Virus record (IMG/VR): IMGVR_UViG_3300010883_006602
Span: 1 to 20,639 of that record
Strand: one strand, 5' to 3'
DNA from: a virus
DNA length: 20,639 bases
Each line of letters opens with the position of its first letter. The stretch's first letter is position 1. Positions 2,496 through 19,650 of the stretch are shown here, piece after piece. A program made the translations under genes and the position numbers. The notes under the pieces were generated by a model, which was given only the letters and a program-made list of their open reading frames with translations, ran no database searches and had not been told where the DNA came from.

Positions 2496-3431
2496 ATGAA
2501 TGAATTTTTATGGGTAGAAAAGTATCGCCCACAGACTATAGATGAATGTATACTACCAAAAGAATTAAAAGATACCTTTAAGGCTGTGGTATCTACCAAA
2601 GAACTTCCCAATATGCTTTTCACTGGAACGGCTGGACTTGGTAAGACCACTGTAGCCAAAGCCTTATGTAAAGAACTTGGCCTTGACTACATTCTAATCA
2701 ACGGATCTGAAGAAGGCAACATTGATACCCTACGTGGTAAGATCAAGCAGTTCGCATCTTCTATATCATTACAAGGTGGCTACAAGGTTGTCATTCTAGA
2801 TGAGGCCGACTATCTGAACCCACAATCAACTCAACCAGCCTTACGTGCTTTTATCGAAGAGTTCAGTAATAACTGTAGGTTTATACTTACTTGTAACTTT
2901 AAGAACCGTATCATAGAACCACTTCACTCACGCTGTGGTGTGTATGAGTTTAATACAACCAAGAAAGGTCTTGCTCAACTTGCGGCACAGTTTCACAAGA
3001 GGTTCTTAAACATACTATCAGAAGAAGGTGTGAAGGTAGATCAGAAGGCTTCTATAGATTTAGTTATGAAACACGCTCCTGATTGGCGTAGAGTTCTCAA
3101 CGAAGCACAGAGATTATCCATAGGCGGTAGCGGTAACATTAATGCTGTATCAAGTACTAGTGGAAATGATATATCAGGTCTAGTCTCTTCACTTAAAGAT
3201 AAAAACTTTAAGGCTATGCGGCGTTGGGTTGTAGACAACATGGACATGGATACCAATGCAATCTTTAGGGCATTGTATGACAACGTTAGTGAATATGTCG
3301 AGCCTCAAAGCATCCCGCAACTTATTCTTATTCTCGCAGACTACCAATATAAGGACGCATTCGTTGCTGATCACGAGCTAAATATAGTTGCATCGATGAC
3401 AGAGATAATGTCTCAAGTGAGGTTTAAATGA
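2496..3431 (+). CDS. 44: Clamp loader large (ATPase) subunit gp44
   Basis: This 311-residue AAA+ ATPase (T4 gp44 has 319) opens the gp45 clamp and loads it onto primer-template DNA, normally as a 4:1 complex with gp62. It opens with the family hallmark WVEKYRPQTIDE. Walker A is at residues 44-52 (GTAGLGKTT), Walker B with the DEAD box at 98-105 (VVILDEAD), and the arginine-finger SRC motif at 145-147. The C-terminal part matches the clamp-loader collar. It ends in an ATGA overlap with the next gene, which here is not gp62 but an accessory oxygenase; gp62 follows only 4.8 kb later. Confidence 0.95.
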   Translation: MNEFLWVEKYRPQTIDECILPKELKDTFKAVVSTKELPNMLFTGTAGLGKTTVAKALCKELGLDYILINGSEEGNIDTLRGKIKQFASSISLQGGYKVVILDEADYLNPQSTQPALRAFIEEFSNNCRFILTCNFKNRIIEPLHSRCGVYEFNTTKKGLAQLAAQFHKRFLNILSEEGVKVDQKASIDLVMKHAPDWRRVLNEAQRLSIGGSGNINAVSSTSGNDISGLVSSLKDKNFKAMRRWVVDNMDMDTNAIFRALYDNVSEYVEPQSIPQLILILADYQYKDAFVADHELNIVASMTEIMSQVRFK

Positions 3432-3973
3432 AATCATATAATAATTTAGGGTGGGCTACGGATGTTTTATCACAGTCTGCCAGAACATATCTTATAGACT
3501 ATTTTGAAGAAGATAGAAGGTATCTTGAACAAAACCATAATCTTATGAAGACAACTCAGAGAACTACAGATTATAGCGATCCTATGCAAGTAGAAATACA
3601 AGCTAGGATTCAAAAGGCCGCAGAGACTACTATGAGAATGAAACTTTTACCATCCACTAATGGTGTCCTTGTTGAATACGTAAAAGGTTCTTATGCGATG
3701 GGTCATAAAGATGCGGAAGATCAATCTGCACTATCTGTTATTACTATGATAGATTTAAGTCAGGATTTGATGGGCGGTGAAGCATATTTTTCTAAAACTG
3801 AAGACGGGATAAGTGATGGGATGATCTCTGATAGTCATTACAATAAAATGATCCCCGGACCAATGGACAATGGAGATAGTTTAATGTACGGTTCCAAAAT
3901 GTGGCATGGGGTTGAAGAACTATTCTCAGGAAGAAGACTTGTTTTAGTAACTTGGTTTAAGGAAGACGTGTGA
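3428..3973 (+). CDS. Prolyl-4-hydroxylase-like 2OG-Fe(II) oxygenase
   Basis: This 181-residue protein shows the P4H-type core: H93-K-D95 in YAMGHKDAED, a hydrophobic strand ending in GGEAYF, a GDSLMYGSKMWHGVEE strand with the distal iron ligand H160, and R170 (GRRLVLVTWF) as the likely 2-oxoglutarate-binding basic residue. The GEAYF and W-H-GVEE spacing is typical of phage P4H-like proteins. The first 75 residues are helical and not recognised. It opens the accessory block, overlapping gp44 by ATGA and the halogenase by four bases (GTGA). That coupling to the halogenase suggests, but does not prove, that both act on the same substrate or pathway. Confidence 0.78.
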   Translation: MKSYNNLGWATDVLSQSARTYLIDYFEEDRRYLEQNHNLMKTTQRTTDYSDPMQVEIQARIQKAAETTMRMKLLPSTNGVLVEYVKGSYAMGHKDAEDQSALSVITMIDLSQDLMGGEAYFSKTEDGISDGMISDSHYNKMIPGPMDNGDSLMYGSKMWHGVEELFSGRRLVLVTWFKEDV

Positions 3974-5646
3974 AAAAACCAATTAATAGTATTATAGTTT
4001 TAGGTGGTGGTGTGGCTGGTTGGTTTACTGCCGCATACTTAAAAAAATTTAATAAACATTTAGATGTGACTTTAATCGAATCTCCTAATGTTCCTATTTT
4101 AGGTGTAGGAGAAAGTATGGTCCCACAACTAGGGGATATGCTTAAGTGGTTAGATATAGATGAAAATAAATGGTTAGCTGGAGTACATGGTATTCACAAG
4201 ATGGGAAATCATTTTGTAGGATGGAACACAGAAACCCCCATGGAAACCGTTCACGATCATTGGAATGCTAAAAAAGAACATCAACACTATTATACTTTTA
4301 GTTTTACAAACAGAAGTAATGCGTTTAGAAAAACTTTGTATCACAATAGAAGTAAAAACGATTACTTCTATGATAACGATAATAAATTTGGTATTGATAA
4401 TAAAAGCAGAGACTACTGGTATCATTTAGTCAATACTGGCAAGTATGATTGGCATCAACAGGGTGAGTATACGATGGCTCAATACTACCCTTCAATGAAT
4501 AATAGGGCGGCCCGTTATGATGATGGTCATACTGTAGTAGGAGATTATGGATCTTATACGTGGCATACTGATGCCAGCCGATTCCCTAAAATGATAAGAG
4601 AACTATCTGCTTTACCATTAGGAGTAAAATGGAAAGAAGATCATGTTAAAGGGATACATAAAGACGATGATGGTTATATAAGAGAACTAAGTTTAGAATC
4701 AGGTGAAAGAGTATCCGCTGATTTATACTTGGATGCTACTGGTTTTAATAAAGTGTTAATGAAAACCATGGGTGTTAAATGGAAAAGTATTAAGCAACAG
4801 CCAACTCAGAGTGCTTGGGTAGCCCCTGTTAAGTATAAAGATCCTTATAAAGAAATGAGACCATACACTCAAAGCTATGCCCGTAAAGCTGGTTGGCAAT
4901 TTATTATAACTTTGTTCAGTAGAATGGGAACAGGTTACATATTTGACGCTAACAGTTATGATAAAGATCAAGCCAGAGAAGATTTTATAAAGTATTGGGA
5001 TGGGTATGAGTTTATGGCTGAACCTAGATTCTTATCTTGGGACCAAGGCTACTATGAGAAGTCATGGGAAAAGAATGTAATGGCTATAGGAATGTCTGGT
5101 GGATTTGTAGATCCAATGGAAGCCAATGTTATATACGTTGCTCAAGCTGGTATGCAGATGCTCAATCAAGTATTAAATAAAAATAAAGGCAGAGTAGTAA
5201 AAGAAAATACTAAGAAAGCTGTATCAAGAGAACTTCATAAACTTCAAAATCAAATAGACGATTTTATATGCTACCATTACACATTAAGTAAAAGAAGAGA
5301 TACTGACTTCTGGCGTAAGTGGGGTCAGTATGGTATTGACAATAATCATAGAGAGAAGAACTGGAAAGAGTATAGAAGTGCAAGAGGCTATCTAGGATCT
5401 AATTTCTTTTTAGATTATCAGTGGGCTGATCAACAGATGTATATGGATCAGTGGGATACGGACTTGTGTAAATTAAATATCGATCCCACTCTCGTACCTT
5501 TGGCTGAAATGGATTATAACTATATAAAGGATAAGGGGTTATATACATCCAAGATAGCACCTCATGTGTATGATTGGAGTAGTAAACATCTGTATGGTGG
5601 TAGAACTCATAATGAAGTATTAGAAGAGGCGATAGCAGAAAAATGA
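3970..5646 (+). CDS. Flavin-dependent halogenase (tryptophan-halogenase family)
   Basis: At 558 residues it matches the family length (PrnA has 538). It would use FADH2, oxygen and halide to halogenate an organic substrate. The FAD-binding GGGVAGW is at residues 12-18, followed by IESPNVPILGVGES. K77 (GIHKMGNHFVGW) aligns with PrnA catalytic K79. E384 (FVDPMEANVIY) aligns with PrnA E346. The usual WxWxIP motif is degenerate (GW at 308-309, then QFIITL), and the PrnA halide-binding Thr-Gly after the glutamate is replaced by Asn-Val. Cyanophages carry related enzymes; one, VirX1, was reported to iodinate diverse substrates, so free tryptophan need not be the substrate. No flavin reductase is visible here. 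The GTG start overlaps the upstream gene and the stop overlaps the ligase, so all three are probably co-translated. Confidence 0.88.
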   Translation: MKKPINSIIVLGGGVAGWFTAAYLKKFNKHLDVTLIESPNVPILGVGESMVPQLGDMLKWLDIDENKWLAGVHGIHKMGNHFVGWNTETPMETVHDHWNAKKEHQHYYTFSFTNRSNAFRKTLYHNRSKNDYFYDNDNKFGIDNKSRDYWYHLVNTGKYDWHQQGEYTMAQYYPSMNNRAARYDDGHTVVGDYGSYTWHTDASRFPKMIRELSALPLGVKWKEDHVKGIHKDDDGYIRELSLESGERVSADLYLDATGFNKVLMKTMGVKWKSIKQQPTQSAWVAPVKYKDPYKEMRPYTQSYARKAGWQFIITLFSRMGTGYIFDANSYDKDQAREDFIKYWDGYEFMAEPRFLSWDQGYYEKSWEKNVMAIGMSGGFVDPMEANVIYVAQAGMQMLNQVLNKNKGRVVKENTKKAVSRELHKLQNQIDDFICYHYTLSKRRDTDFWRKWGQYGIDNNHREKNWKEYRSARGYLGSNFFLDYQWADQQMYMDQWDTDLCKLNIDPTLVPLAEMDYNYIKDKGLYTSKIAPHVYDWSSKHLYGGRTHNEVLEEAIAEK

Positions 5647-6635
5647 TTCATATTGATGGCGTAGAATATCTTAAAAGCGATAATGATCATGTTAGATCGT
5701 CAGTCATAAATTATTTAGAAAATTGGAATATAACTGTAAGCACTAGTGGAACAACTGGTAAGCCTAAGACGTTTAAACACGATAGTAAACTTATGCATAA
5801 GATTGCAGAGTACAATGCTGAAGCATTTGGTTTAAGTTCAAACAGCACTATGATGGCTCTGTATAATCCAAGAGGTATTGGCTTCTCCTCTATGAGTTTA
5901 TATCCTTGTGCGGTAGCAAACTGTGATGTTTTTATAGAGACTACAGTATCAGATTATCCTAATAGAATACGAGAAATAAATCCAACTCACTCTCTTATGT
6001 TACCGAATGTGTGGAAGACTTGGCACAGACATAAGGCGTGGAAGAGTTTAGACTTAAGTGGGGTTCAACAACTTCAAGTAGGAAGTGATGTTACTCCCAA
6101 TGGTATGATGGAAGATCTAAGGTCTAAAGGAGCACGACAAGTTAACACGGCTTATGGAAGCACAGAGGTTCCACCTTTAATCATGTCCACTGAACAGCAA
6201 GATATTTATCACTTCAATGATATAAATCCTATGATAGACTATAAGAATATTAATCATGAAGATGGTTCTATAGAGTTTGCTTGTAAGTATAAAGATCAAG
6301 ATGAATGGTGGAATAGTGGAGACCTCATAGAATATAATAGTAAAGGCGAGTTCTTCTTTGCAGGGCGGCAACACAACGTATTTAAGATGGAGAACTGTGG
6401 TGATAGAGTATATCCAGAACAGATAGAAAAGGTTGCTATAGAAAATGGTGCGAGTTTAGCACTGTGTAGAAAAGTGAGTAAGCAATGTATAGTTTATTTC
6501 ACGGGTGATATGAATATTAAAAACTTTATCAAAGATCATGTTTGTGGTTATGAGGTTGTTCCAAAGAAAGTCGATAGTATTGCTATTGATGATAATCTAC
6601 GTAAGGTAAAAAGGAATCAAATCATTGCTACGTGA
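5643..6635 (+). CDS. Compact ANL-superfamily adenylate-forming ligase
   Basis: This protein would activate a carboxylic acid with ATP to an acyl-adenylate, possibly passing it to CoA or another acceptor. The phosphate-binding core STSGTTGKPK is at residues 33-42, the A5 motif AYGSTEVP begins at 170, and the A7-type WNSGDL (D227) is followed by FAGRQHNVFKMENCGDRVYPEQIE, the hinge and C-terminal subdomain signature. A basic LRKVKRNQI near the end sits where the catalytic lysine of A10 is expected. At 330 residues it is much shorter than usual acyl-CoA ligases (about 450-600). Most of the N-terminal domain before the P-loop is absent, with only 32 residues there. The start overlaps the halogenase stop (ATGA). 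No carrier-protein gene is seen nearby. Confidence 0.85.
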   Translation: MIHIDGVEYLKSDNDHVRSSVINYLENWNITVSTSGTTGKPKTFKHDSKLMHKIAEYNAEAFGLSSNSTMMALYNPRGIGFSSMSLYPCAVANCDVFIETTVSDYPNRIREINPTHSLMLPNVWKTWHRHKAWKSLDLSGVQQLQVGSDVTPNGMMEDLRSKGARQVNTAYGSTEVPPLIMSTEQQDIYHFNDINPMIDYKNINHEDGSIEFACKYKDQDEWWNSGDLIEYNSKGEFFFAGRQHNVFKMENCGDRVYPEQIEKVAIENGASLALCRKVSKQCIVYFTGDMNIKNFIKDHVCGYEVVPKKVDSIAIDDNLRKVKRNQIIAT

Positions 6636-7212
6636 AAAAAGTAGGAGTGGATATGAGCTATACATTACAGACAATCCCAGAGATGATTACCTTGACGAGT
6701 TTATGTGGAGTATTGAAACTGACTATAGAAATACGAATAGTCTAGTAGACGATCCGTTTACTTATTCTAAACTTTCAGCATTTAAATTTAAATACGCTAT
6801 ACTTTGGTTAAAAGATGACGTACCGTTCATGGGATGGTTTTTAACTCAGTATAAAAATCTGCCTTCAAATGTAGTTAGATGTTTTTGTAGGTGGTATAAG
6901 TTAAGTACGTCTAAAGATATAACTATGAGATTTTTGCAAGAAGAGCATCAAATGTATGCTAAACATCTTCAACCTCTTTTAGATGCTGATAGTATTGATA
7001 CAGTGTTTTTTACTAGGCATCTATCTACCAAAAAAGATATGGGAAAATGGAAAAATAAAAAACGTGTTAAGATTGGCATGGGCGAAAGAGCCGATATTAA
7101 ATGGACTGAAAGTAAATTTAGAAATATTGAACAAACTATATACTACTTTAGCACATGGAAGTTTTATGATAAAATGGATGAAGGTTTTTTATCAAAGTTA
7201 GATAAGGCATGA
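6625..7212 (+). CDS. Protein of unknown function in the halogenase block
   Basis: A 195-residue protein, not recognised. The likely start is TTG at 6625, with AAGGA nine bases upstream (6611-6615) inside the end of the ligase gene. No in-frame ATG occurs until 6703. The first half alternates beta-like and aromatic segments (YAILWLKDDVPFMGWFL, then NVVRCFCRWYKL); the second half is lysine-rich and helical. The strand-turn-strand feel is loosely GNAT-like, but no acetyl-CoA loop can be pointed to, so this is only a guess. It overlaps the ligase by 11 bases and the desaturase by four, so it belongs to the same transcription unit. Confidence 0.7.
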   Translation: MLREKSRSGYELYITDNPRDDYLDEFMWSIETDYRNTNSLVDDPFTYSKLSAFKFKYAILWLKDDVPFMGWFLTQYKNLPSNVVRCFCRWYKLSTSKDITMRFLQEEHQMYAKHLQPLLDADSIDTVFFTRHLSTKKDMGKWKNKKRVKIGMGERADIKWTESKFRNIEQTIYYFSTWKFYDKMDEGFLSKLDKA

Positions 7213-7931
7213 ACTATGGCACTAAATTAAGATTGCTGTGGATCAGTAGTCATTTAACTGTCTTGTATAGTTTTTTAAGTGTATCCTCTTATGCTATCAT
7301 AGTATCTTTAATATGGTCTGTTGTCGTTGTAGTAGTAGGCGGTTATGCTGGATGGCATAGACACTTTATCCATAGAAGTTATGAAACGGGTAGGATTAGA
7401 AAGTTTATTCTATTATGGTTGGGGGCTATTCAAGGTATTGGAAAGCCTCTTACTATTTGTGCTATTCATAGATGGCATCATGCACATAGTGATACTGAAG
7501 AAGATATACACTCACCAACAACATTGAAGTGGTGGCAAATATTACTAGGGTTTTATAAAGAACCAAAATTACACAGAAGACTGATTAGCGATCTCATACA
7601 AGATAAAAATATAAAGTTTTGTCAGAGGCATTACTTCAAAGTTATACTAACACTAAATGTAATATTGTTTATTATTGATCCAGTGTTGCCCGGACTTATT
7701 ATGGGTATTGTAAACTTACACGCTTTTTACTCAACAGGTATTATTATAAACTGGTTAAATCATTTGGGCGGTAAACCTAATAATAATATTTTATGTGCCA
7801 TACTTACCTTGGGAGAAGGTTGGCATAAAAATCATCACGAAGATAGCACTAGGTATTCTAATCAGGTTAAATGGTATCATCTAGACCCTACTGGTTGGAC
7901 GATAAAATATTTTTTAAAACTAGGAGATTAG
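7209..7931 (+). CDS. Membrane fatty-acid desaturase (delta-9 type)
   Basis: This 240-residue integral membrane di-iron enzyme would introduce a double bond into an acyl chain. All three histidine boxes are present: H50RHFIH55 (HxxxxH), H87RWHHAH93 (HxxHH) and H206KNHHED (HxxHH), with the stearoyl-CoA/DesC-type contexts GYAGWHRHFIHRSY and GEGWHKNHH. Hydrophobic membrane spans precede box I (about 16-48) and lie between boxes II and III (about 143-185). It is somewhat short for the family. Its place after an acyl-activating ligase makes an acyl-linked pathway plausible. The ATG overlaps the upstream stop by four bases, and the next gene starts directly after its stop. Confidence 0.9.
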   Translation: MNYGTKLRLLWISSHLTVLYSFLSVSSYAIIVSLIWSVVVVVVGGYAGWHRHFIHRSYETGRIRKFILLWLGAIQGIGKPLTICAIHRWHHAHSDTEEDIHSPTTLKWWQILLGFYKEPKLHRRLISDLIQDKNIKFCQRHYFKVILTLNVILFIIDPVLPGLIMGIVNLHAFYSTGIIINWLNHLGGKPNNNILCAILTLGEGWHKNHHEDSTRYSNQVKWYHLDPTGWTIKYFLKLGD

Positions 7932-8237
7932 ATGGAACATGAAATAAGACTTTATACACAACCTCTATGTGGCTATTGTGATATTATAAAAGAAATGCTG
8001 GACAAAGCTGGGTATGTGTATTATACTATAGACATAACTAAAGTAGATGGATCTAAACGTTTTCTGAAAGAGCGTAACCATAAGACTGTACCTCAGTTGT
8101 ATGTCGGTGATACTCATGTTAACAAAAAGGATACTCTTGAGTATAGTATAGAAGAACTATCGAATATTATAAATGAAGCAAGACTTGGTGTATCATCTAC
8201 TGATTGGCCTGAGGGTAATGGAGAACAAGAATTTTAA
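7932..8237 (+). CDS. Glutaredoxin
   Basis: A 101-residue thioredoxin-fold protein with the dithiol active site C13-G-Y-C16 (TQPLCGYCD) and the glutathione-site cis-proline motif TVP in HKTVPQLYVGD. It probably reduces disulfides using glutathione; in T4-like phages glutaredoxins serve ribonucleotide reductase. The C-terminal tail (GVSSTDWPEGNGEQEF) is a short acidic extension. It starts directly after the desaturase stop and overlaps gp62 by one base. It may serve nucleotide metabolism rather than the neighbouring halogenase block. Confidence 0.88.
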   Translation: MEHEIRLYTQPLCGYCDIIKEMLDKAGYVYYTIDITKVDGSKRFLKERNHKTVPQLYVGDTHVNKKDTLEYSIEELSNIINEARLGVSSTDWPEGNGEQEF

Positions 8238-8617
8238 TGCCAAAACTTTTTGATTATGTTACAAGCATAAATACTTCTAAGGTAGATCTTATGAAGGACG
8301 ATAGAGATGCAAATGTCTATAACGCTTTCTATATTAATCGTTCTCTTAGTTATTTTGCTGATACTGTTGGCCTTGCAAATGTGGTAAACCAATACCACCA
8401 CCTTGACAAAAAACTACAATATCATTTTCTTATAAATATCATCAGGAAGCGGAAACGTTTTTCTAAATGGATGAAAGCCGAAAGTGAAAGTGATATTGAT
8501 GCGGTTCAAGAATACTATGGTTATAGCAAAGAAAAAGCCAAACAAGTTCTCCCCCTATTATCACCTGATCAAATAATAATAATAATAAAGAAGGTGAGCA
8601 AAGGTGGAAGAAAATAA
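8237..8617 (+). CDS. 62: Clamp loader small subunit gp62
   Basis: This 126-residue protein fits the non-ATPase clamp-loader subunit that joins gp44. The central IIRKRKRFSKWMK corresponds to the PRGKRYGKWAK region of T4 gp62, and HFLINIIRKRKRFSKW plus EYYGYSKEKAKQV resembles the short gp62 of marine T4-like phages. T4 gp62 is longer (187 residues). Its position just before regA is the canonical T4 order. The 3' end holds a run of AAT triplets encoding five isoleucines. Its stop lies 14 bases inside the regA reading frame if regA uses the GTG at 8604. Confidence 0.82.
   Translation: MPKLFDYVTSINTSKVDLMKDDRDANVYNAFYINRSLSYFADTVGLANVVNQYHHLDKKLQYHFLINIIRKRKRFSKWMKAESESDIDAVQEYYGYSKEKAKQVLPLLSPDQIIIIIKKVSKGGRK
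8572..8586 (+). repeat. AAT trinucleotide run, five copies
   Basis: Five uninterrupted AAT units lie in the last codons of gp62 and read as Ile codons (ATA) in frame. They sit just upstream of the ribosome binding site and start of regA. Loss or gain of one unit keeps the gp62 frame. Confidence 0.8.
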
Positions 8618-9017
8618 CATTGTAAAATGGGTGCCAAGTGATATGCTTGAAGTCACTCTGAATGAGCCAGATGATTTTTTAAAAATAAGAGAAACGCTTA
8701 CACGTATTGGTGTGGCTTCCCGCAAAGATAAAAAACTATTTCAATCATGTCATATATTACACAAGCAAGGTAGATACTTTATAGTTCACTTCAAAGAACT
8801 ATTCATGCTTGATGGTAAGAAAGCTAATCTAGAACAGAGCGACTTAGAGCGCAGAAACACAATCGCTACATTGTTAAGTGATTGGGGTTTACTTGATTGG
8901 GCAGTAAAGGATGCTGAACATCCTTGTGCTCCTCTACGTCTGATTAAGATTATTCCCTTTAAAGAGAAGAGTGAATGGGAGCTTTGTCCTAAGTATAATA
9001 TCGGAAACAAGCAGTAA
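8604..9017 (+). CDS. regA: Translational repressor RegA
   Basis: RegA binds early phage mRNAs near their start codons and represses translation, including that of its own cluster in T4. Similarity to T4 RegA is strong: ETLTRIGVA, YQSCHIL-like FQSCHILHKQGRYFIVHF, DWGLLDW and the ending WELCPKYNIGN. T4 RegA (122 residues) aligns from residue 14 here (MLEVTLNEPDDFL), so the true start could be ATG 8643. GTG 8604 is kept because AAGGTGAG lies at a good distance upstream and because it overlaps gp62 in the style of the operon. The stop overlaps the next gene by one base. Confidence 0.92.
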   Translation: MEENNIVKWVPSDMLEVTLNEPDDFLKIRETLTRIGVASRKDKKLFQSCHILHKQGRYFIVHFKELFMLDGKKANLEQSDLERRNTIATLLSDWGLLDWAVKDAEHPCAPLRLIKIIPFKEKSEWELCPKYNIGNKQ

Positions 9018-15781: not shown

Positions 15782-16047
15782 GCACTTTACTTGAGTTCTT
15801 GGACTCAGACAATGATAAGGTAGGAAACTTTCCAGAAAAGGAATGGGTCAATATGCCTGAGTTCGTATCTGAAAAGGTAGAGCCATATGCGAAGGTCATT
15901 GTTCGTTTTGATAATGAACAGGACTTGAAAGAGTTTTCTGAAATGATTGGTCAGAAGGTTAATGTTAAAACAAAAAGTATCTGGCACCCACAACTAGATC
16001 GTGGTAAGAACGGTGGCTTACGTTGGGTAGAAAATGACAAGTCTTAA
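15778..16047 (+). CDS. Small phage protein of unknown function
   Basis: This 89-residue protein starts in an ATGA overlap with the primase-like gene and ends 14 bases inside the next gene. It has an acidic N-terminus (EFLDSDNDKVG), then a compact alpha/beta segment (YAKVIVRFDNEQDLKEFSEM) and KTKSIWHPQL near the end. I recall similar 'V.F....D...F....GQ......SIW.P' segments in other phage hypothetical proteins, but no function is assigned. Tight coupling on both sides supports a real gene. Confidence 0.78.
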   Translation: MSTLLEFLDSDNDKVGNFPEKEWVNMPEFVSEKVEPYAKVIVRFDNEQDLKEFSEMIGQKVNVKTKSIWHPQLDRGKNGGLRWVENDKS

Positions 16048-16540
16048 CATACTTAAACAACTTAGCAATACCGCTGAGAGTGATGAGTGTTATACCCCGT
16101 CTGATCAGGTCCACCCTTTGTTGGAATACTTGGACAAGGATAAGACTTACTACGAAGCAACCAGTGGAAAGAGTTCTAACATACTTGACGGTTTCAACAA
16201 ATACGGTTATAATATAGTTGGATCGGATGAGAAAGACTTCTTTGATTGTACGGTAACCGATGTATACGATGGCATCATAACAAATCCACCATACAGTTTG
16301 AAAGACAAGTTCATCAAGTACTGCTATGATCTAGGTAAGCCATTCGCATTGTTCTTACCTGTTGCGTCATTCCAAGGTAAAAGACGTGGACAAATGTTTA
16401 TGGAGCATGGTATGTCTGCACTGGTTTATAATAATCGTGTGGACTTTACTGGTGGTGGTTCTCCTATGTTTGGTAACGCTTGGTTTATACATGGGTTCCT
16501 ACCACCGAATACAATCTATTGGGTAAATAATCCGAAATGA
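16034..16540 (+). CDS. Small Rossmann-fold methyltransferase-like protein (NPPY)
   Basis: A 168-residue protein with a motif-I-like YYEATSGKSSNILDGF near residues 38-53, a GSDEKDFFD acidic strand, and the catalytic-type motif TNPPYSLKDKF (motif IV). These order as in N6-adenine methyltransferases (I then IV), but motif I lacks the usual FxGxG form and the protein is short, so it may be a divergent enzyme or a catalytically altered relative. Substrate (DNA or other) is unknown. It overlaps the genes on both sides by a few bases and precedes the HNH gene. Confidence 0.65.
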   Translation: MTSLNILKQLSNTAESDECYTPSDQVHPLLEYLDKDKTYYEATSGKSSNILDGFNKYGYNIVGSDEKDFFDCTVTDVYDGIITNPPYSLKDKFIKYCYDLGKPFALFLPVASFQGKRRGQMFMEHGMSALVYNNRVDFTGGGSPMFGNAWFIHGFLPPNTIYWVNNPK

Positions 16541-17271: not shown

Positions 17272-17787
17272 ATGAATAGTATCGAAAAAATTATTACTCC
17301 ACTGTTGGAAAAACTTGCTGGAAGAGTTGAAGACAAATGGTATGGATCTAAATATGAGGTAGTTAAAGCGGCGGCAATGACACCTAAAGGTGATTTTGGA
17401 GAAGAGGTTACTGCTACATTGATAAAAGAACTCATTGGTATGAGTGCTAAAATCATCAACGGTGGTAAAGGAGAATTTGATATCATCACTAATTCTGGTA
17501 TTAAATTTGAGAACAAACTTGCTACTGAAGATACTAGTGGTGGGTTTCAGTTCAATGGAATAAAAAAAGATGTAGTATATGATTATGTATTTGGTCTTGG
17601 TGTTTCTCCAAATGATTTATGGTTTGGTATTTGGAGTAAAAAAGAGACAGAAAATTTAACCGTTTCTATGACCAAAGATGGTTCTGATAGCTTTAAACTA
17701 TCTGCAAGAAAAGCTTCTGGTGCTAAATATCCTTTACTTCCTTTAACACCACAAAACTTTAAAAGAGAGGTATCAAAAATTGTCTAG
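17272..17787 (+). CDS. Putative type II restriction endonuclease, PD-(D/E)XK fold
   Basis: A 171-residue protein. The nuclease core is visible as D70-x9-E80-N-K82 (GEFDIITNSG, then KFENKLATED), preceded by a helix with E44-E45 (DFGEEVTATLIKEL) that often completes the active site. A short GGKGEFD turn leads into the first catalytic aspartate. The size fits a small homodimeric restriction enzyme. The direct eight-base overlap with a DNA methyltransferase gene is the main reason to call restriction. Recognition sequence is unknown. The ribosome binding site is weak (GAAAGCGAA region). The start at ATG 17272 is supported by the promoter position. If not a restriction enzyme it could be another phage nuclease. 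Confidence 0.75.
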   Translation: MNSIEKIITPLLEKLAGRVEDKWYGSKYEVVKAAAMTPKGDFGEEVTATLIKELIGMSAKIINGGKGEFDIITNSGIKFENKLATEDTSGGFQFNGIKKDVVYDYVFGLGVSPNDLWFGIWSKKETENLTVSMTKDGSDSFKLSARKASGAKYPLLPLTPQNFKREVSKIV

Positions 17788-18748
17788 TGCATGGGATGGA
17801 TTGGTAAATAACAAACAAAAAACTGAGTTACCACATTATGCAATAAATAAAAGTTTACCCGCTGATAGTTATTTCACTTCATCGAAAACGGCTAAAAGAT
17901 GCATTGATATTGCAAATTTGGTAATACCAGATAATACTTTTACCTATATCGAACCATCTGCTGGCGAAGGATCGTTCTATAACCTATTACCAAATAGTTC
18001 TCGTATAGGTATAGAATTGTATGATCGTAAAAGACCAGAATATATACAAGCAGATTACTTAACATGGTATCCCAAAGAAAATAATAATTATGTTGTTATA
18101 GGTAATCCACCTTTTGGTGTTAGGGGCGCAACGGCTCTCGCATTTATTAATCGTTCTCTATTATTTGCAGACTATGTAGCATTTATTCTACCCATGTCGT
18201 TTCATAGTAATGGTAAAGGTAGTAACATGAAACGAGTCACAAATGGTCATTTGATTCATTCAGAAGTCCTTTATGGCGAATCATTCTTTTCCCCAGACAA
18301 TAATAAAGAAATTAAAGTCAACACGCTATTTCAAGTATGGAAAAAGGGAGAAGGGGAAGGGATATTCCCAGATTATGATATATCAGAGTATGCCGATATA
18401 TATACTGTCTGTTCGTCACCAAATAGGTTATGCGGATTAGAAAAAATAGGGACATATGATTTTTATGTTTCATCATCATATTTTGGCGAAACTCTTCCAA
18501 CAGTATATGATTTTACAGATGTAAAATATGGTTCTGGTTATGGTGTTATCTTAAAAAAGAGTAAAAAAGATATTATTAATAAATTAAAAGATATGGAATG
18601 GAATAAGTATGCTTCATTAGCAACTAACAGTTGCAAACATATTCGTAAATATTCTATAGAGAAATGTTTACATGATCTTGGATATGGTAGCATTAGAATA
18701 CTTAGAAAGAAGTTAGAGCGACAAGGTAATCTGAATGCGTTTTTATGA
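17780..18748 (+). CDS. Adenine- or cytosine-N4-specific DNA methyltransferase
   Basis: A 322-residue protein. SAM-binding motif I is E58PSAGEG64 in TYIEPSAGEGSF, the following acidic strand is GIELYDRK, and the catalytic motif IV is N109PPF112 in VVIGNPPFG. Motif I before IV, with a C-terminal region of about 150 residues (likely target recognition), fits the gamma-type order of M.TaqI-like enzymes. TTG 17780 overlaps the nuclease stop by eight bases with GAGAGG upstream; no nearby in-frame ATG competes. It would protect DNA from the partner nuclease. The last residues (LRKKLERQGNLNAFL) lie in the right direct repeat and overlap the glycosyltransferase start by four bases. Confidence 0.85.
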   Translation: MSSAWDGLVNNKQKTELPHYAINKSLPADSYFTSSKTAKRCIDIANLVIPDNTFTYIEPSAGEGSFYNLLPNSSRIGIELYDRKRPEYIQADYLTWYPKENNNYVVIGNPPFGVRGATALAFINRSLLFADYVAFILPMSFHSNGKGSNMKRVTNGHLIHSEVLYGESFFSPDNNKEIKVNTLFQVWKKGEGEGIFPDYDISEYADIYTVCSSPNRLCGLEKIGTYDFYVSSSYFGETLPTVYDFTDVKYGSGYGVILKKSKKDIINKLKDMEWNKYASLATNSCKHIRKYSIEKCLHDLGYGSIRILRKKLERQGNLNAFL

Positions 18749-18790
18749 AAAATAAGTATCCCATATATGTGGTCTCAAAGAATCGTTGGG
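18701..18790 (+). repeat. Right direct repeat of the restriction-modification cassette
   Basis: Partner of 17110-17207. It covers the 3' end of the methyltransferase gene and the first 15 codons of the intact glycosyltransferase gene; similarity stops at base 18790, in mid-gene, which shows that this copy is the original for the coding part. Confidence 0.9.
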
Positions 18791-19650
18791 ATCAATGTAA
18801 GACCGCTGAACTTCTTGACAGACTTTCGGTGGACTATCATATTGTGGTTGAGGAAGATCAACTAGATAAGTATGCTGAATACCATGACAGAGACAAACTC
18901 CTAACCCTTGATGGAAGTTACTTAGACTATTACGATACGTGTGATGATCTGGGTCAGAGTAAGAGTAAGGGTCCGGGAGCGGCTAGAAACTTTGCGTGGG
19001 AGCATTCTACTACAACGTATGGTGCCAAGTGTCATTGGGTTATGGATGATAACATCTACGACTTTCACAGACTAAACAATAATGTAAAGGCCGCTGTAAG
19101 AACTATGGCATGGTTCAGAGCCATGGAAGACTTCTGTGACAGATACTCCAACGTAGCAATCGCTGGTCCTAACTATAGTAAGTTCTGTAAGGCAACCGAT
19201 AAGGTTCCACCACTTATCTTCAATACAAGAATATACTCATGTCTCCTAATCCGTAATGATATTCCTTACAGATGGCGTGGACGATATAATGAAGATACTG
19301 ATTTATCTTTAAGAGCATTGAAAGATGGTTGGTGTACAATACAGTTCAATGCATTCCTAGCAGACAAGGGAACAACCCAACGAACTATTGGTGGTAATGA
19401 TAAAGAGTTTTATGCTGAAGAAGGCACACTACCTAAGTCAGAGATGCTAAAAGAAATGCACCCTGATGTTACTGAGGTTGTTTGGAAGTTTAATAGATGG
19501 CACCACCATGTGGACTATAGACCATTTAAGAAGAACTATTTAAAAGAAGTTGATAATGTCTTGTATGCTAAAGATCCAGAGTATGGAATGAAGCTTATAG
19601 ATATTGGCAGAGAGAACATTGGTAGACGTGCTATTGATGATAGAATATAG
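18745..19650 (+). CDS. TET-associated-type DNA glycosyltransferase
   Basis: A 301-residue protein resembling the phage TET-associated glycosyltransferases, which add sugars to hydroxymethylated cytosine in DNA. The N-terminus IYVVSKNRWDQCKTA, the GPGAARNFAWEHS segment, the DxD-like D101-D-N103 in HWVMDDNIYDF, the VAIAGPNYS strand and the strongly conserved-looking RWRGRYNEDTDLSLR at about 177-190 with GWCTIQFNAFLADK all fit this group. No TET enzyme or hydroxymethylase is visible here, so the modified base would have to be made elsewhere in the genome. The product would be protected DNA. It follows the restriction-modification cassette, and its first 46 bases are duplicated at 17162. Confidence 0.78.
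   Translation: MKNKYPIYVVSKNRWDQCKTAELLDRLSVDYHIVVEEDQLDKYAEYHDRDKLLTLDGSYLDYYDTCDDLGQSKSKGPGAARNFAWEHSTTTYGAKCHWVMDDNIYDFHRLNNNVKAAVRTMAWFRAMEDFCDRYSNVAIAGPNYSKFCKATDKVPPLIFNTRIYSCLLIRNDIPYRWRGRYNEDTDLSLRALKDGWCTIQFNAFLADKGTTQRTIGGNDKEFYAEEGTLPKSEMLKEMHPDVTEVVWKFNRWHHHVDYRPFKKNYLKEVDNVLYAKDPEYGMKLIDIGRENIGRRAIDDRI

Follow-up and report, generated by a model that had tools for sequence, protein, structure and literature searches.

We analysed a 20,639-base virus record (IMG/VR record IMGVR_UViG_3300010883_006602, hereafter the window) of a T4-like marine phage, and focused on the genes that lie between its two clamp-loader genes, gp44 and gp62. The DNA polymerase and gp44 of the window were closest to those of phage C48C1 (58% and 66%), followed by those of cyanophages and marine methylophages. 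Six genes on the + strand fill the slot between gp44 and gp62 (3428-8237), among them those for a flavin halogenase-like protein (HAL), a compact ANL-type AMP-forming ligase (LIG) and a predicted GNAT-fold acyltransferase (Table 1). Every junction in the chain is overlapping or abutting: the overlaps are of 4 bases at 3428, 3970, 5643 and 7209, 11 bases at 6625, 1 base at 8237 (the gp62 start) and 14 bases at 8604 (the regA start), and the genes are directly adjacent at 7932.

The positions and coupling of these genes are as reported in a first-pass annotation made from the letters of the window, and the halogenase, ligase, desaturase and glutaredoxin families named there were recovered by Pfam (PF04820, PF00501, PF00487 and PF00462). 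Its P4H-type oxygenase matched 2-oxoglutarate (2OG) oxygenase families of PHROG and had no Pfam support. The gene that it had left as an unknown protein (6625-7212) is predicted to have a GNAT fold and is a core part of the block; with it, a likely release or transfer step had been missed.

Table 1 Genes in and around the gp44/gp62 slot of the window, and positions of an associated small protein at other loci
Feature	Position	Strand	Evidence
gp44, clamp-loader large subunit, left border of the slot	2496..3431	+	phrog_168 E 9e-113
2OG-Fe(II) oxygenase, P4H-like, optional member	3428..3973	+	phrog_61 E 4.5e-6
Flavin halogenase-like protein (HAL), core member, GTG start	3970..5646	+	PF04820 E 8e-83
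Compact ANL-type AMP-forming ligase (LIG), core member	5643..6635	+	PF00501 E 3e-13
GNAT-fold acyltransferase (predicted), core member, TTG start	6625..7212	+	predicted fold, AlphaFold2 + Foldseek
Membrane acyl desaturase, delta-9 type, optional member	7209..7931	+	PF00487 E 1e-9
Glutaredoxin (CGYC), independent slot resident	7932..8237	+	PF00462 E 4e-13
gp62, clamp-loader small subunit, right border of the slot	8237..8617	+	phrog_225 E 1e-40, PF16790 E 4e-10
regA, downstream of gp62	8604-9017	+	
DUF6356 small protein	L031:3860-4108, L150:11688-11951, L161:12770-13054, L234:11838-12116		

Recurrence and reassortment of the cassette

The slot was surveyed in 80 loci around gp62. The genes gp44 and gp62 are directly adjacent in many relatives (e.g., L084-L091 and L096-L099) and in phage C48C1, other cargo separates them in some relatives (cyanophage S-T4 carries three other genes), and in 15 loci (L069-L083, not dereplicated) glutaredoxin is the sole gene between them. 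Because the slot is thus empty, differently loaded or glutaredoxin-only across relatives, it is an ordinary, common cargo site, and the split of the clamp-loader genes, highlighted in the first-pass annotation, is in itself not meaningful. The loci with glutaredoxin alone also indicate that this gene belongs to the slot and not to the pathway.

After dereplication, 15 groups of marine viral contigs have the block itself in the gp44/gp62 slot, with the order HAL-LIG-GNAT fixed wherever the contig is uncut, so the arrangement is not due to chance. All cassette loci are metagenomic fragments. They were dereplicated by single-linkage clustering on 200-base words held in common, and as the cassette genes served as queries for the loci, the counts tell of neighbours and not of abundance. 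Across all settings, LIG and GNAT each accompany the HAL clade in 21 of 21 dereplicated clusters; of the determinable LIG clusters, in turn, 29/29 contain a GNAT and 21/26 contain HAL. The travelling unit is therefore the halogenase, ligase and GNAT. The first-pass annotation had asked whether the genes of the block travel together in marine phages; these three do, while glutaredoxin is independent and the desaturase and oxygenases are optional.

Beyond the clamp-loader slot, the genes were found in three further settings. In a tail-fibre-like setting, LIG and a different GNAT follow a structural gene amid glycosyltransferase-like and radical-SAM-like genes; HAL is usually missing here, and one locus (L197) has a halogenase between LIG and GNAT. 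In the ThyX setting (L150/L161), a small GNAT-like open reading frame (ORF), so labelled by inspection only as Pfam gave no match, is followed by HAL and LIG near a thyX gene. In the third setting, between a MoxR-type ATPase gene (phrog_1297) and a VWA gene (phrog_1314), the order is LIG, HAL, GNAT and a ketosynthase, with an optional desaturase before or after GNAT. The ketosynthase is of the FabF type (PF00109/PF02801; NCBIfam FabF E 1e-75). Twelve clusters of this MoxR/VWA slot have LIG, HAL, GNAT and ketosynthase, 15 have no cassette gene and a few have remnants. A 78-aa acyl carrier protein (ACP) with the motif GIDSLDS is encoded in two contigs of the MoxR/VWA type; one such gene (L205:1444-1680) adjoins a radical-SAM-like gene about 34 kb off the ketosynthase cassette of the same contig. 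The DUF6356 small protein adjoins the ligase or GNAT in all three of these settings (Table 1).

The contigs of the tail-fibre, ThyX and MoxR/VWA settings yielded no gp44, and the T4 portal, capsid and Terminase_6N models had zero matches in them, so their viral status is taken from IMG/VR and from their phage-type genes. A cyanobacterial host was considered and set aside, as psbA was absent from the 14 contigs searched, which is weak evidence against it. An assignment as a defence system was likewise dropped, PADLOC giving only a generic 2OG entry.

Phylogenies of HAL and LIG built with IQ-TREE were discordant with strong support. The HAL of L007 joins those of L014/L046 (100/100), whereas its LIG joins that of the window (100/100). 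The tail-fibre LIGs are nested within the clamp-loader LIGs, and the L150/L161 HALs within the clamp-loader HALs. The gp44 fragment, gp62 and regA of L007 are 96-100% identical to those of the window, as compared with 97% for LIG, 53% for HAL and 26-27% for GNAT. Parts have thus been exchanged while the set was retained, which argues for a joint function, and this reassortment around a constant set is a clear example of modular pathway evolution in viruses.

Features of the individual enzymes

HAL scored 279 bits against a curated PF04820 cut-off of 21. The GxGxxG FAD site (G12, G14, G17) and the catalytic K77 and E384 are invariant in all 44 unique HAL sequences, and the closest PDB sequences are tryptophan-type halogenases, e.g., LooH, RebH, Thal and VirX1 (6qgm, E 3e-45).

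LIG scored 49.7 bits (PF00501 cut-off, 29.9), and its P-loop (STSGTTGKPK), YGSTE, SGD, GR and C-terminal Lys are invariant or nearly so in a 19-row alignment. Its predicted structure is an ANL fold, with matches that include MenE, McbA, PltF and 4CL. The Pfam match begins at profile position 170, i.e., the full N-terminal PF00501 subdomain (about 170 positions) is not there; a compact relative (4gs5, 350 aa) has already been solved. The ligases of the MoxR/VWA setting are longer (456-467 aa) and only distantly related to the compact LIG, and those without a C-terminal domain belong for the most part to cassettes from which HAL and the ketosynthase have gone as well, a point in favour of the pathway proposed below. 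The region L234:10266-12780 has no halogenase and holds a degenerate ligase, GNAT, the DUF6356 protein and another mini-ligase, of 227 aa, whose P-loop is intact. A cellular origin of LIG was rejected, one scan of 84,980 species genomes, at its sensitivity, having returned no convincing relative and one poor match (24% over 94 residues); among 50,697 phage records there was no close LIG either, with a single 24% match.

The gene at 6625-7212 was modelled with AlphaFold2 from a 12-member alignment (mean pLDDT 85.5). The top PDB matches listed by Foldseek were GNATs (E about 4e-5 to 5e-4), LasI (1ro5) included, and the viral structure library also yielded GNAT-annotated matches, so the product is predicted to be a GNAT-fold acyltransferase. 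Pfam gave no GNAT match for any of the 12 members, and the label is accordingly one of fold. A weak Pfam hit to monogalactosyldiacylglycerol synthase (E 0.04; best 0.0024) was ruled out by the predicted fold. Profile comparisons of the window GNAT with the GNATs of the other settings were not significant, so their homology was dropped and unity of all GNATs is not claimed; the tail-fibre and MoxR/VWA GNATs are related to each other (E 2e-5), and FeeM is the weak best Pfam match (E 0.03) of the tail-fibre one. The window GNAT had zero matches in the 50,697 phage records. A distant relative (E 9e-5) stands alone between MoxR and VWA genes in a 246-kb contig (L220:10214-10846).

The desaturase scored 39 bits against the PF00487 cut-off of 29.7, has all three His boxes (HRHFIH, HRWHH, HKNHH; key His invariant in 5/5 aligned sequences) and matches the acyl-CoA desaturases 4zyo and 4ymk in the PDB. 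Its closest isolate relatives, from Pelagibacter phage Mosig and an Acinetobacter phage record, are 28-31% identical. Wherever its neighbours are readable it is accompanied by LIG (9/9 clusters), GNAT (9/9) and HAL (8/8), and, of the determinable clusters, it is missing in 9 of the 17 with HAL and in 16 of the 25 with LIG. The first oxygenase has an HxD motif (GHKD) and a distal H...R (WHGVEELFSGRR), and L002 lacks it by a clean, gene-sized absence. Both the first oxygenase and the desaturase are thus optional members, and a second oxygenase and an AhpD-like protein are further optional genes of the clamp-loader cassettes.

Proposed pathway, alternatives and context

The contiguous, co-travelling genes have probable roles, judged by enzyme family, in activation, tailoring and release, and would in this respect fit a natural-product gene cluster. 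We give about even odds to a view of the block as a mobile metabolic cassette of phages with a three-enzyme pathway as its core. Under this proposal, the most economical one for these enzymes, the compact ANL ligase would adenylate a carboxylic acid and hand it on as an acyl thioester, on coenzyme A or an ACP, or as an acyl-adenylate. The halogenase-like flavoenzyme would then halogenate the activated acid, most probably at an aromatic or electron-rich position, and the GNAT would move the acyl group onto an amine, releasing an N-acyl product. With the acyltransferase in place, activation of the acid by the ligase would naturally lead on to an acceptor step. Tailoring may fall to the desaturase, the 2OG oxygenases and the AhpD-like proteins as interchangeable parts, and in the MoxR/VWA version the FabF-type ketosynthase could lengthen the acyl chain via the ACP. 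The product may serve infection as a signal, as a toxin against competitors or by modifying a host or virion component. The first-pass annotation had described the six coupled genes as an operon and had suggested, from halogenation, carboxylate activation and desaturation, a phage-encoded pathway to a modified, possibly halogenated, acyl or aromatic acid; a recurring phage operon was confirmed and activation with halogenation is a reasonable inference, though glutaredoxin falls outside the pathway and the oxygenase and desaturase are optional. More tentatively, lytic marine phages may carry a modular, virus-specific gene cluster for a halogenated N-acyl metabolite made in infection, its modules being reshuffled between phages by selection that favours diverse products, as happens in the antibiotic or signal pathways of bacteria.

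Several results weigh against this proposal, and those on HAL favour a different reading of it, as a flavin monooxygenase of the same superfamily, comparable to the LodB/GoxB/QhpG maturases, that would hydroxylate the substrate, the ligase and GNAT then acylating it with no halogen involved. The WxWxIP motif is not present, the second Trp being Phe in 44/44 HAL sequences (W-x-F-x-I-[P/S/T/G]), for which reason we name the protein halogenase-like and not a canonical halogenase, and EAN or EGN stands where EST is expected after the catalytic Glu. The best NCBIfam matches include QhpG, LodB and GoxB, far under the cut-off and mostly across the FAD-binding part. The flavin reductase PF01613 was absent from the 16 cassette contigs searched, so reduced flavin would have to come from the host, which may supply it. 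The invariance of K77 and E384, which are central to halogenation, and the tryptophan-type halogenases as nearest PDB sequences speak for a HAL that introduces halogen, and we regard the monooxygenase reading as unlikely. As to the ligase, L047/L145 (L047:2910-3557) and L050 (L050:38-685) carry it as a clean ORF of 215 aa that lacks the P-loop, A8 and A10, with an intact GNAT adjoining and, in L047/L145, an intact HAL. Adenylation is thus not essential everywhere, and the reduced ligase may be a binding protein with no catalytic role. Those gp44/gp62 phages that were searched yielded no ACP. LIG also occurs without HAL in 5 of 26 determinable clusters, all of the tail-fibre setting; this is a minority, so neither the ligase nor the desaturase is found without the halogenase as often as with it, the pattern that the first-pass annotation had named as contrary to its proposal.

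The tail-fibre setting, where LIG and GNAT come right after a structural gene and next to glycosyltransferase-like genes, would suit a cassette that decorates a macromolecule, the GNAT placing the activated, modified acyl group on virion proteins, surface glycans or the modified DNA of the phage, and the window does carry a TET-associated glycosyltransferase (TAGT). We consider this improbable, as the remaining three settings place the cassette next to genes of replication or nucleotide metabolism or to MoxR/VWA genes and the ketosynthase better suits a small acyl metabolite. TAGT was found in only 2 of 19 cassette contigs and a TET/JBP dioxygenase in 0 of 19, in a search that had no positive control, and DNA hypermodification as such was set aside. 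A lipid-remodelling auxiliary operon, in which ligase and desaturase tune the fatty acids of the host membrane and the flavoenzyme and GNAT also act on lipids, would account for a delta-9-type desaturase beside an acyl-activating ligase, and lipid desaturases have been described in cyanophages (Roitman 2018, ISME J, as cited in PMC11480375) and occur in Pelagibacter phage Mosig. However, the desaturase is missing in the HAL and LIG clusters counted above, the constant partner of the ligase is GNAT and not the desaturase, and lipid remodelling leaves the halogenase-like enzyme without a role; this explanation has a distinctly low probability. The varying contents of the slot and the discordant HAL and LIG trees could also mean that gp44/gp62 is a permissive site gathering unrelated metabolic genes. 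This is largely refuted by the recurrence and very unlikely, since HAL, LIG and GNAT occur together in 21/21 clusters, the set recurs at unrelated sites and, unlike independent cargo, it is kept despite the swapping of its parts.

The enzymes of the proposed pathway are of known kinds, and the viral operon is undescribed as far as we searched, no description of the halogenase-ligase-GNAT combination being found in that literature. Single tryptophan-halogenase-like (prnA) genes have been known in cyanophages since 2010 (PMC2984593, PMC3037559; see also PMC10452541), the sole role suggested for a phage halogenase is antibiotic protection (PMC2984593), and VirX1 is reported as a biochemically active phage halogenase (PMC8407142). 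HAL belongs to the same superfamily and keeps the catalytic Lys and Glu, but it is only about 24-29% identical to VirX1 and the cyanophage halogenases, forms a separate clade (100/98) and differs in its WxFxI and EAN signatures and in its coupling to a ligase and GNAT; no ligase or GNAT of the cassette families was found alongside in the four isolate phage halogenase neighbourhoods read. The cassette desaturase and the cyanophage lipid desaturases are both phage-borne membrane fatty-acid desaturases, and the former is always inside the cassette. The GNAT-fold N-acyl amine synthases (FeeM and LasI-type N-acyl-homoserine lactone synthases) are comparable in that LasI is among the fold matches of the cassette GNAT, with no significant sequence match. 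In the PltF/PltA-type pyrrole and bmp-type phenol pathways, an ANL enzyme activates an acid and a flavin enzyme halogenates, which resembles the cassette, and PltF ranks high among the fold matches of LIG. The cassette differs from these clusters in its putative GNAT release, viral location, compact ligase and, in the clamp-loader version, lack of an ACP, and it is likened to them at the level of the pathway.

For more than a decade, then, phage halogenases have been known as single genes with no pathway or role attached to them. The constant partners of the present clade point to a substrate of the acyl kind and to release by a GNAT, which makes the role testable. If the proposal is true, some marine phages would make specialised metabolites of their own, with effects on competing bacteria, superinfecting phages or host signalling, and enzymes for halogenation and acyl transfer would be on offer in the ocean virome.

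Some further features were noted outside the slot. The window encodes a free-standing, 276-aa class II aminoacyl-tRNA synthetase-like domain of the D/K/N type (PF00152, 9598-10428), flanked by a JmjC/cupin gene and hsp20 and missing in the maps of most relatives. Two ORFs with NPPY/NPPF motifs (16034-16540 and 17780-18748) lie upstream of the window TAGT (18745-19650; PF20691, E 3e-45), and together they are a possible DNA-base modification module. TAGT is also present in the contigs of L014 and L047, and in the former (G002, 27295-28304) the matches to the gp23 major capsid protein fall in two separate pieces.

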